Of a stretch of 37,561 bases of DNA, positions 12,749 to 16,178 are shown one piece after another. This stretch comes from Gemmatimonadota bacterium (GTDB lineage Bacteria; Gemmatimonadota; Gemmatimonadetes; Gemmatimonadales; GWC2-71-9). Location: assembly GCA_016199245.1 (NCBI GenBank), contig JACQHC010000061.1, forward strand, positions 1 to 37,561. The letters are read 5' to 3'. The notes beneath the pieces were generated by a model. That model had not been told where the DNA came from. It saw only the letters and a list, made by a program, of their open reading frames with translations, and made no database searches. The position numbers and the translations under genes were made by a program. Positions within the stretch are counted from its first letter, which is position 1. Each line of letters starts with the position of its first letter.

Positions 12749-13525
12749 ATGTTCTTGTCCAAGTGGTATTGCGACTGTGTGACCGACGCGGGCGCCGCGT
12801 TCATCGGCTACTGGGCCCGGCTGCGAGTGGGGCCGGTCACGATTCCGTACGCCGCGACCCTCCACAAACCCGTGGGCCAGGCGACGGCGGAGCAGACGCG
12901 CCTTCTCCCCACCGAAGCACCCGCCGTGAAGAACGGCGACCTGCGCTGGGATTGCAGGCGCCTCGGCGTCCGCGTCGCATGGAACGCGCGCGCCCGGGCG
13001 ATTCACCGCACGCTGCTCGAGTGTGCCCACGGAAGCATCATCTGGCACTGCCACGTGCCGGCCGGCCGCGCACGTGTCGACTTCCGCGACGCGGCTCCGC
13101 TCGAAGGGCTCGGCTATGCCGAGCACCTCACCATGTCCCTGAAGCCGTGGGAGCTCCCGTTTCACGAAGTGCGGTGGGGGCGCTTCCTGTCGCACGCGGA
13201 TGCCCTGATCTGGATCGAATGGCGCGGTGCGGATTCGCGCCACTGGGTGTTTCACAACGGCGTCGAGATTCCGGACGCGGTGATAGATCCCGAAGGCGTT
13301 CAGCTCCCATTCGATCACGGCTGGCTTCAGCTTTCCGGTGACGCTCCCGTGCGTGACGGGCCGCTGCTGTCCACGGCGTTGCGCGCGTTTCCCGCGAAAC
13401 GACTCTGGCTCTCCGGCCGGCTGGAGGGTGCGCACGAGACGAAGTGGGTGGCGCGCGGAAGGTTCACCGCCGGCGGGCGACACAGCACCGGCTGGGCCAT
13501 TCACGAGGTCGTGCGGCTGAGATGA
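12749..13525 (+). CDS. AttH/CrtC-like lipocalin-fold protein, putative
   Basis: 258 residues, rich in Trp, His and Arg and poor in hydrophobic helices, so a soluble beta protein is likely. The segment GLGYAEHLTMSLKPWELPFHEVRWGRFLS, with later IWIEWRG, has the order of the GxGYxxH...WGR core seen in AttH/CrtC proteins (carotenoid 1,2-hydratase and hydroxyneurosporene synthase relatives). The match is only in pattern. The start MFLSKWYCDC has two close cysteines and lacks a signal peptide. Its stop overlaps the start of the next gene (ATGA), so it is very probably made with the methyltransferase/PAP2/Lgt fusion and may supply or bind its lipid substrate. Function remains unassigned. Confidence 0.6.
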   Translation: MFLSKWYCDCVTDAGAAFIGYWARLRVGPVTIPYAATLHKPVGQATAEQTRLLPTEAPAVKNGDLRWDCRRLGVRVAWNARARAIHRTLLECAHGSIIWHCHVPAGRARVDFRDAAPLEGLGYAEHLTMSLKPWELPFHEVRWGRFLSHADALIWIEWRGADSRHWVFHNGVEIPDAVIDPEGVQLPFDHGWLQLSGDAPVRDGPLLSTALRAFPAKRLWLSGRLEGAHETKWVARGRFTAGGRHSTGWAIHEVVRLR

Positions 13526-15459
13526 CGCGCGTGGTGCTCGGCAAGATCGCCTACGGCGCATTGTCCGTGGCCGTGGTCCCGGCGGCCCTCGCGTGGTGGG
13601 CCATGAAAGCCGACGCGCTGGTGCCCCTGCCCACGATACCGTATCCCTGGGGCGGCTGGGTGCTGGTGGCTATCGGCGTTCCGCTGATCGTGGCGGGCGC
13701 GTCGGCGCTGATCATCCACGGACGCGGGTTACCGATGAACCCGTATCCTCCGCCGGTCTACGTGACGCGCGCGATCTACCGCTTCACGCCGCACCCGATC
13801 TATGTGGGGTTCGGCATGGTGTGCTTCGGCGCCGCCATGCTGTGGGAGTCGCCCGGCGGGCTGTGGTTGGTTGCGCCCGCGACATCGCTTGCCATGGCCG
13901 CCCTGGTCCTTGGATACGAGCGCCATGACCTGCGCCGGCGGTTCGGTCACCAGAATATCGCGAAGCCCCTCGTATCCCTCCCTCCGGACAGCCCTGAGCA
14001 GCCTACCCGGTGGCACCGGGCCTCGATCTACATCCTGGTCCTCATCCCGTGGTCGGCGGCGTTCGAAGCCGTCTATCGCCTCGGGATCCCGTCCGACGCG
14101 GTCAGCGCCCACTTCCCGCTCGAGCGAGATTGGCCGGTGATGGAGTGGACCGAGGCTGTGTACGGCAGCGTATACGTCTTTGTCCTGGCCACGCCGCTCG
14201 TGGTCACCACGCAGCGGGCTCTGCGCCATCTGGCGTTGACCGGTCTGATTGCGACCGCCGTGGTCACGCTGGTCTACCTGACCGTGCCCGTCGTGGCGCC
14301 GCCGCGCCCGTTCGAGCCACGGACCATCCTCGGTCACGCGCTGATGATCGAGCGCGCCATGTCGCACACAGTCGCCGCGTTCCCGTCGTTTCACGTGATC
14401 TGGAGTCTCATCGTGGCCGAGGCATGGGCGTCGCGATCCCGCGCGTGGGGTGTGGCAGGCTGGACATGGGCGGCGCTCATCATCGTGAGTTGCATCACCA
14501 CGGGCATGCATGCCCTCGTGGACATCGCGGCAGCCATCGTGGCGTTCGCGGTGCTACGGGAATACCGCCGCGTCTGGCGGCTCATGCTGCGGGCGGCGGA
14601 ACGGGTGGCCAACTCGTGGCGTGAGTGGCGATGGGGTCCGGTACGCGTCATCAACTACGGAGCCTATGCAGGCCTGGGCGCGGCGGCAGGCTTCTGGGTG
14701 GGAAATTCTCTGGCTGGCCCCACGGTGTTTTGGCCGCTCGTCTTCATCCACGTGTGCGGACTGGTGGCGTCCGCCGCGTGGGCACAGCAGCTGGAGGGCT
14801 CGCCCAAACTCGCCCGGCCCTTCGGCTACTACGGAGGCGCGATCGGCGGGGCGATTGGAGCCGTGATCGCGGGAACCGTCTCCGGCAACACGACGATGCT
14901 CCTCGCGCTGATCGCGATGGAAGGGCCGTGGCTGCAGGGGATAGGCCGGCTGCGGTGCCTCGTGCAGGGCTGTTGCCACGGCGCGAGGGCCCCGGCGGAT
15001 GCCGGTATCAGATATCTGGAGCCCCGTTCGCGCGTGGCAGCGATCGCCGATCTGGCCGGGGTTCCGGTCTACCCCACCCCCCTGTACTCGATTCTCACCA
15101 ACGTCGTGATCGGCGTGCTGCTGATTCGACTCTGGTCGCTCCACGCCTCCTTCGGCATCATCGCCGGCGTGTACTTGTTGTCGAACGGCATCGCGCGGTT
15201 CGTGGAGGAGTCGTATCGCGGCGAGCCACAAACCCCTGTGATCGGTGGACTGCGGCTGTATCAGTGGGTCGCGCTGCTTTCGGTGACGGCCGGGGCATGG
15301 CTCACAACGATATCCAGCGGTACTGCCCCGGGATTGTCGCTGCACTTCGATTCACGCATGCTGCTGGCCGGCGCGCTGTACGGGCTGCTGGCCGGCGCCG
15401 CGATGGCCATCGATTTCCCCGCGTCCTCGCGGCGGTTCGCGCGGCTCGCGCCGCCGTGA
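13522..15459 (+). CDS. Three-domain membrane fusion: ICMT-like methyltransferase / PAP2 / Lgt-like
   Basis: 645 residues from ATG 13522, which overlaps the previous stop (ATGA); the track start is 26 codons too early. Residues 1-150 resemble isoprenylcysteine carboxyl methyltransferases: RFTPHPIYVGFGMV (HPIY, 91-94) and YERHDLRRRFG (132-142). Residues ~165-350 resemble a PAP2_3/AUR1-type phosphotransferase: AFPSFH (His291) and TTGMHALVD (His330, Asp334), with only a weak first PAP2 motif (PPRPF). Residues ~375-600 resemble prolipoprotein diacylglyceryl transferase: GRLRCLVQGCCHG (475-487), PTPLYS and ARFVEESYRG, keeping the Arg and Glu positions important in Lgt, with the GCCHG variant seen in Lgt-like proteins of unknown role. 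It is a polytopic inner-membrane protein. The combination suggests lipid headgroup or lipid-anchor modification, but this is an inference. Confidence 0.72.
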   Translation: MTRVVLGKIAYGALSVAVVPAALAWWAMKADALVPLPTIPYPWGGWVLVAIGVPLIVAGASALIIHGRGLPMNPYPPPVYVTRAIYRFTPHPIYVGFGMVCFGAAMLWESPGGLWLVAPATSLAMAALVLGYERHDLRRRFGHQNIAKPLVSLPPDSPEQPTRWHRASIYILVLIPWSAAFEAVYRLGIPSDAVSAHFPLERDWPVMEWTEAVYGSVYVFVLATPLVVTTQRALRHLALTGLIATAVVTLVYLTVPVVAPPRPFEPRTILGHALMIERAMSHTVAAFPSFHVIWSLIVAEAWASRSRAWGVAGWTWAALIIVSCITTGMHALVDIAAAIVAFAVLREYRRVWRLMLRAAERVANSWREWRWGPVRVINYGAYAGLGAAAGFWVGNSLAGPTVFWPLVFIHVCGLVASAAWAQQLEGSPKLARPFGYYGGAIGGAIGAVIAGTVSGNTTMLLALIAMEGPWLQGIGRLRCLVQGCCHGARAPADAGIRYLEPRSRVAAIADLAGVPVYPTPLYSILTNVVIGVLLIRLWSLHASFGIIAGVYLLSNGIARFVEESYRGEPQTPVIGGLRLYQWVALLSVTAGAWLTTISSGTAPGLSLHFDSRMLLAGALYGLLAGAAMAIDFPASSRRFARLAPP

Positions 15460-15468
15460 AAGCCGGGC

Positions 15469-15894
15469 TCAGGTCCGTACAGTCCGAAACCCTTCGCGGC
15501 TCGCTGCATCGCTGAGTCGCTCGTCGAGGCATACGAATGGCAAGGACGCCGGGTCGTGCTCGGCCGCCACAATAGCTGCCGCGAGCTGTAGGCTGTCCGC
15601 CGCCCGGAGTGGATGAACCCGTAGGAGGCGCCGGGCCGTGCTTCGCACTGCGTCGCCCGGTAGGATTTCTTGCCACGCTCGGGCAAGACCGTCCAGATGT
15701 TCCAGGACGGTGGCGACGTCGGTCAGGGCGAGCGCGCCTTCTCGCTCCCGCCGCGCGATGGCCGACACGCATTCCACCGGCGTGCCCCACCATGCGAGCA
15801 TGACCGGATCTTCGTCGAGTAGGTCGAGCAGCGGGCCGCGGGCGGGTTCGTCGAGCAGCAGGGCGGCTACCGCGGATGCATCCCAGAACTTCAC
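15469..15894 (-). CDS. vapC: VapC-type PIN-domain ribonuclease toxin
   Basis: 141 residues, starting at the ATG of 15894-15892, which overlaps the stop of the upstream antitoxin gene (ATGA). The PIN acidic residues are all present: Asp5 in FWDASAVA, Glu41 in TPVECVSAIARRE, Asp100 in RAADSLQLAAAI, and Asp124 in FVCLDERL. This is a magnesium-dependent RNase that, when free of antitoxin, cleaves tRNA or rRNA and stops translation. It ends nine bases from the convergent fusion gene. Confidence 0.9.
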   Translation of the reverse strand: MKFWDASAVAALLLDEPARGPLLDLLDEDPVMLAWWGTPVECVSAIARREREGALALTDVATVLEHLDGLARAWQEILPGDAVRSTARRLLRVHPLRAADSLQLAAAIVAAEHDPASLPFVCLDERLSDAASREGFRTVRT

Positions 15895-16178
15895 CGGCCT
15901 TCCCGCCGCTCCTCGAGCAACCCGTCCACGACGCTCGCGCCGGAGCGCGGAGCCGGACCGCGAAGTGCCGGGACGTCCACGTTACCCCCGCCCCGCCGCA
16001 GGAGACCGGCTCGCTCTAAGCGCGTAAGCCGGTCGTCCGTCGTGCCACCGGCCTCCACTCGCTCCAGCCGAGCCACGGGCTCGTCCCGATCAAGGACCAG
16101 GATGGTCTGGCCCGCCCTTACCTTCTTCAGGTACGCGCTCAGGCGGTTCTTGAGCTGTGATATTGTAGCCTTTTGCAC
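15891..16178 (-). CDS. vapB: Phd/YefM-type antitoxin of the VapBC pair
   Basis: 95 residues from a GTG at 16178-16176. The N-terminal half is a Phd/YefM DNA-binding fold: TISQLKNRLSAYLKKVRAGQTILVLDRDEPVARLE. The C-terminal half (GGNVDVPALRGPAPRSG) would be the disordered part that wraps and inhibits the PIN toxin. It is coupled to the toxin gene by a 4-base overlap. Upstream, six bases from the start, is TATATT within a perfect palindrome, so the pair is probably autoregulated and its message may be leaderless. Confidence 0.88.
   Translation of the reverse strand: MQKATISQLKNRLSAYLKKVRAGQTILVLDRDEPVARLERVEAGGTTDDRLTRLERAGLLRRGGGNVDVPALRGPAPRSGASVVDGLLEERREGR

Follow-up and report, generated by a model that had tools for sequence, protein, structure and literature searches.

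The locus consists of two overlapping genes on the forward strand of the window, the 37,561-nucleotide stretch of Gemmatimonadota DNA that we analyzed (Table 1). The downstream gene had been read in an earlier note as an ICMT-like methyltransferase, a PAP2 phosphotransferase, and an Lgt-like transferase joined in one membrane protein. Its reading frame runs from an ATG at 13522 to a stop codon ending at 15459 without internal stops, and it contains all six of the motifs quoted in that note: HPIY (residues 91-94), YERHDLRRRFG (132-142), FPSFH (287-291), GMHALVD (328-334), GRLRCLVQGCCHG (475-487), and ARFVEESYRG (558-567). Pfam places three domains in order along this one uninterrupted frame, all above their curated cut-offs: PEMT (residues 45-142, E 6.5e-6, 27.0 bits against a cut-off of 25.0), PAP2_3 (186-342, E 8.5e-15, 55.5 against 27 bits), and LGT (372-595, E 6.3e-18, 65.4 bits against a gathering score of 24.9). 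The motifs and domains confirm that the three signatures occur in order in a single 645-residue frame. The first domain is indeed a membrane methyltransferase, but the ICMT profile falls below its cut-off (E 0.037, 14.9 against 24 bits), so PEMT/ICMT-like is a more exact label than ICMT-like. No NCBIfam family covers the fusion over its whole length.

Table 1 Features of the locus and of related loci in other contigs and genomes.
Feature	Position	Strand	Description
Partner gene up258	12749..13525	+	258 aa; soluble, all-beta, AttH/CrtC-like lipocalin fold; 4-bp ATGA overlap with fusion
PEMT-PAP2_3-LGT fusion	13522..15459	+	645 aa, 18 predicted TM helices
Domain 1, PEMT/ICMT-type SAM-dependent membrane methyltransferase	13522..14001 (residues 1-160)	+	Pfam PEMT; site predicted cytoplasmic
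Domain 2, PAP2_3 phosphatase/phosphotransferase	14002..14562 (residues 161-347)	+	Pfam PAP2_3; site predicted periplasmic
Domain 3, LGT-type diacylglyceryl transferase	14614..15306 (residues 365-595)	+	Pfam LGT, 5azb fold; predicted inverted, site cytoplasmic
Extra TM helix 18	15352..15408 (residues 611-629)	+	Beyond the seven-helix Lgt core; conserved RRFxRL tail follows
Phd/YefM antitoxin and PIN-domain genes	15469-16178	-	Convergent, directly downstream; PIN match weak
Split six-gene cluster	L040: 6994-12925; L167: 4654-10441		PAP2_3, partner homologue, LysA-like PLP decarboxylase, PEMT-acyltransferase, ABC ATPase, ABC permease
Lone PAP2_3 frame (G169)	L039: 8957-9628	+	Like the middle domain alone; ends at the PAP2/LGT border near contig end
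Orphan partner homologue (complete genome G075)	L163: 8688-9557	-	Fusion absent; adjoining short stretch masked as N
Repeated partner gene	L112: 1115-1912 and 3095-3892		Near-identical copies; the first followed by a truncated fusion
Third LGT-family gene and radical SAM gene (G000:C37)	L045: 2-661 and 654-1346	- (both)	LGT protein of 230 aa
LGT protein with long C-terminal part	L081: 2915-4744	+	609 aa, LGT N-terminal; 120 bp upstream of a cassette

Profile searches assigned neither terminal third to an unrelated membrane family; the PEMT and LGT profiles each score above cut-off. We could also reject a frameshift or assembly artefact: the same architecture recurs in one frame in independent assemblies from at least ten phyla, and AlphaFold2 predicts a single compact model (pLDDT 94.6, pTM 0.93). 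Among solved structures, this model matched E. coli Lgt (5azb, E 7e-6), with weaker matches to SMSr (8ijq) and AUR1 (9vj4).

The fusion occurs in Gemmatimonadota, Acidobacteriota, Bacteroidota, Ignavibacteriota, Zixibacteria, Planctomycetota, Verrucomicrobiota, Myxococcota, Pseudomonadota, and Calditrichota, which is to say in at least ten phyla; cultured carriers include Minicystis rosea, Actibacterium atlanticum, and Chitinophaga hostae. A scan of the GTDB species genomes yielded 189 relatives, and the best 80 of these are nearly all full length (37-69% identity, mostly about 620-650 aa), a set that by its selection favors full-length members. In a tree of the fusion, phylum labels cluster, yet 16 label changes are needed against a minimum of 9, which points to a patchy history that includes mixing of phyla. 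Judging from these sequences, horizontal transfer of the fusion between phyla is likely; no match was found among 72,556 plasmid records. A literature search found no published description of the PEMT-PAP2_3-LGT architecture, and where Lgt and PAP2 come up in the lipocone paper, it is in different settings.

The partner gene is nearly constant. Among the best 80 of the 189 fusion relatives, a member of its family lies directly upstream on the same strand in 77, and in the other 3 the contig begins no more than 219 bp from the fusion. In 73 of 75 loci a fusion start codon is available no more than 26 nt from the partner stop codon, with the -4 overlap in 32, although this spacing was taken from the nearest start codon and is biased toward short distances. 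Among 395 sampled genomes from this phylum, the fusion was matched in 19, the partner in 17, and both in 16 (Fisher p 1.3e-24, counting the split version in genome G220 as both). Distances between partner proteins follow those between fusion proteins (Mantel r 0.73; the highest of 2000 permutations reached 0.31).

Attempts to assign the partner by sequence or profile failed. Among 60 members there was no Pfam match, CrtC and AttH included; there was no sequence relative in the PDB; and hhalign against a 10-sequence alignment of PF07143 aligned 12 columns (prob 3). Fold alone placed the protein: Foldseek searches with its AlphaFold2 model (pLDDT 94.4) returned the pericyclases CghA, Fsa2, and Phm7, as well as 25-phosphosteroid lyase, kievitone hydratase, and the AttH protein NE1406 (E 1e-8 to 1e-10, prob 1.00). 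The model thus assigns the partner to the lipocalin-like AttH fold, a link by fold only. Unlike these relatives the partner is short (258 aa versus 320-380 aa), and it carries a motif of its own, GYxE...PWxLP...WGRF. The AttH fold has been proposed to act in lipid and isoprenoid metabolism, and CrtC (PF07143) is a related family (PMC2954199) whose catalytic residues are His, Trp, Tyr, and Asp (PMC4717167). At one locus (L112) the partner gene appears twice, probably through misassembly.

The signature catalytic residues are conserved in the first two domains of the fusion. Across 60 diverse members, P92, Y94, G96, and E133 are invariant and H91 is found in 53, so that the four-helix methyltransferase domain keeps the HPxY...G...E pattern of PEMT and ICMT enzymes (PF04191, PF04140); it differs from them in being fused into the cassette protein. 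The PAP2_3 domain has the fold and the His-His-Asp triad of the inositol-phosphorylceramide synthase AUR1 and of SMS/SMSr (H291 and H330 in 59/60, D334 in 58/60). The C1 lysine is absent and the C1 Arg and Pro vary, being present in 51/60 and 39/60 members, respectively. Fold neighbors also include phosphatases such as LpxE and the B. subtilis PGP phosphatase. By profile and predicted fold the domain appears closer to the phosphotransferases AUR1 and SMSr, but the match to the AUR1 profile is weak (E 0.027) and nothing indicates sphingolipid substrates.

The C-terminal third combines the fold of Lgt (PF01790; E. coli 5AZB) with a changed active site. R476, R559, E563, and R566, mapped by motif to R143, R239, E243, and R246 of E. 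coli Lgt, are present in 60/60 members, preserving the essential Arg/Glu cluster. In contrast to Lgt, the domain sits behind two others, lacks the long arm segments, and scores far below the NCBIfam Lgt equivalog cut-offs (63.9 versus 334 and 32.1 versus 118.9 bits). The signature of the E. coli enzyme, GRLGNFINGELWG (PMC4728403), reads GRLRCLVQGCCHG in the fusion. Cys, Cys, and Ser (C479 and C484 in 60/60, S523 in 58/60) take the places of N146, E151, and E202, residues of the E. coli enzyme that bind phosphatidylglycerol or form the lining of the site; the donor may therefore not be phosphatidylglycerol, or may not be used in the manner of Lgt. The canonical Lgt of the same genome likewise departs from the signature, yet it keeps E202. 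The Tyr at the H103 position is nothing special, as that canonical Lgt has Tyr there too. Taken together, the catalytic residues conserved in each of the three domains support the earlier idea that all of them act on lipid.

Most genomes with the cassette, including the source genome, encode a separate canonical Lgt that scores better than the fusion (170-250 bits versus 58-88), so we rejected canonical Lgt activity as its primary role; no separate Lgt was seen in two possibly incomplete genomes (G223, G287). Other LGT relatives were found in passing. A third LGT-family gene in the source genome (Pfam E 8e-16) overlaps the 5' end of a radical SAM gene. The contig end cuts the latter, and what is visible of it is similar to TrsS (NCBIfam E 1e-57) and to the tetraether lipid synthase Tes (1.5e-49); this pair is another sign of LGT relatives working outside lipoprotein lipidation. 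In a Bacteroidales bin (L081), a gene just upstream of a cassette encodes a protein that begins with an LGT domain and continues into a long C-terminal part lacking annotation.

The active site of E. coli Lgt lies on the periplasmic side of the membrane (PMC4728403). With 18 helices and the N-terminus inside, the positive charge of the fusion's loops alternates according to the positive-inside rule over the full length of the protein, which puts the methyltransferase site inside, the PAP2 motifs outside, and the LGT motifs inside. Five helices lie between the last PAP2 motif and the LGT motif, so the two should lie on opposite sides of the membrane. Moreover, the four loops that are cytoplasmic in canonical Lgt carry on average 3.0, 3.1, 3.3, and 2.7 Lys and Arg residues, versus 0.2, 0.1, 1.0, and 0.3 in the fusions (9 fusions aligned with 16 fusion-free LGT proteins, mostly canonical Lgts of the same phylum). 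Helix counts and loop charges thus predict an LGT domain inverted with respect to Lgt, its site facing the cytoplasm beside that of the methyltransferase; the 18th helix, which Lgt lacks, would bring the C-terminus back inside.

Clustering of about 3,400 neighboring ORFs revealed no third gene that is generally conserved near the fusion; neighbors beyond the partner vary, and the pathway cannot be read from context. In seven Acidobacteriota loci, all of one group, a UbiA prenyltransferase gene lies directly upstream of the cassette; its nearest models are archaeal DGGGP synthases, with scores far below cut-off. In the window, the two genes that follow the fusion are likely to be a toxin-antitoxin pair and show no sign of belonging to the cassette.

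A search for split versions, proposed in the earlier note, found a syntenic one in a single genus of the same family (G220 and G395). Here PAP2_3 stands alone, PEMT is fused to an acyltransferase, the partner homologue is distant, and LGT is absent. The profile of the fusion matches the split PEMT and PAP2 proteins with E-values of 1.7e-30 and 3.7e-23, and a related lipid may be the product of the six-gene cluster. The second of the two clusters turned up when relatives of G220 were searched, and a query with the PEMT-acyltransferase returned ordinary acyltransferases and the PEMT domain of one fusion. In an Opitutaceae genome (L087, Verrucomicrobiota), an ABC pair directly upstream of the partner and fusion is 47% and 37% identical to the pair of the split version. 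The lone PAP2_3 frame in genome G169 may be either a remnant or a further split form.

These observations describe one 18-helix protein with three domains and conserved catalytic residues, whose gene follows that of a soluble AttH/CrtC-fold protein and is inherited together with it. Three lipid enzymes in one chain, a spread over at least ten phyla, and a nearly constant partner argue that the fusion and the partner probably belong to an uncharacterized lipid pathway. We infer that the fusion is a dedicated lipid-building enzyme with a cytoplasmic acceptor, not a lipoprotein transferase. As a tentative model, to which we give somewhat less than an even chance, the locus is a two-gene cassette that makes or modifies a membrane lipid. 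The inverted LGT domain would take a diacylglyceryl group, or a glycerolipid group like it, from a phospholipid and attach it to a small acceptor in the cytoplasm instead of to the lipobox cysteine of an exported lipoprotein; PEMT would methylate the same lipid with SAM on the cytoplasmic side; PAP2_3, on the periplasmic side, would remove a phosphate or swap a phospho-headgroup as AUR1 and SMS do; the partner would bind or chemically alter a hydrophobic substrate; and in some lineages an ABC-2 exporter would transport the product. In betaine-lipid synthesis by BtaA/BtaB, diacylglycerol is joined to a cytoplasmic small molecule and the product is methylated; the likeness is by analogy only, as the enzyme families differ, and we claim no homology. 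The bolder version is that the cassette makes an undescribed class of bacterial membrane lipid: an inside-out Lgt-type transferase would link diacylglycerol to a small molecule of the cytoplasm, and the same polypeptide would also carry out methylation and phospho-headgroup chemistry. This version strikes us as rather doubtful.

In favor of the cassette model, the split version joins PEMT, PAP2, and the partner with an acyltransferase and an ABC exporter, and UbiA adjoins some cassettes; against it, the split version has its acyltransferase but no LGT, and one complete genome (G075) carries the partner but no fusion. UbiA could also speak for an isoprenoid branch, in which the cassette modifies a carotenoid, quinone, or polyprenyl phosphate: the partner would hydrate or dehydrate the terminal isoprene unit, PEMT would methylate as CrtF does after CrtC, and PAP2 would remove a phosphate. 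Two of the partner's fold neighbors, kievitone hydratase and 25-phosphosteroid lyase, have isoprenoid C=C bonds as their targets, and the kinship of CrtC with AttH fits as well. However, the partner has no family-level link to CrtC or AttH, conserved carotenoid genes are not among the neighbors, UbiA is confined to its one group, and the LGT domain has no obvious place in such a branch, which makes it unlikely. It is quite unlikely that the fusion recycles or detoxifies, breaking down or scrambling a phospholipid instead of building one; PAP2 and LGT folds could hydrolyze as well as transfer, and a sporadic distribution is typical of accessory functions, but every member keeps the SAM methyltransferase domain, which points to synthesis, as do the acyltransferase and exporter of the split version.

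Two further readings are less probable still. With the equivalents of N146, E151, and E202 gone from LGT, and with the C1 lysine missing from PAP2 and its C1 Arg and Pro inconstant, one domain or more might be catalytically dead and serve as a membrane scaffold or lipid-binding module; the near-invariance of E133, of H291/H330/D334, and of R476/R559/E563/R566 makes this improbable. Least probable is a second lipoprotein-type pathway, in which LGT lipidates a dedicated protein and the PEMT/ICMT domain methylates its end. The LGT score above the Pfam cut-off would suit it, and ICMTs methylate lipidated cysteines; yet the Lgt signature and phosphatidylglycerol contacts are lost, the predicted LGT orientation is cytoplasmic, no conserved gene for a substrate protein adjoins the cassette, and the ICMT model stays below cut-off.

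The domains, their order, and the single frame described earlier all stand; the partner gene, the spread across phyla, the split version, and the predicted inversion of LGT had been missed. Each domain belongs to a known family; the novelty lies in how they are combined, in the partner, and in the probable inversion. Three enzymes of membrane lipids, usually separate proteins, are here a single polypeptide, and one unnamed gene accompanies it across at least ten phyla. In databases the C-terminal third of the fusion is likely labeled 'prolipoprotein diacylglyceryl transferase', which would be misleading. If the cassette model is true, a lipid of bacteria from soil, sediment, and groundwater would come to light, and the Lgt fold would be shown to serve, in inverted orientation, for the lipidation of small molecules.
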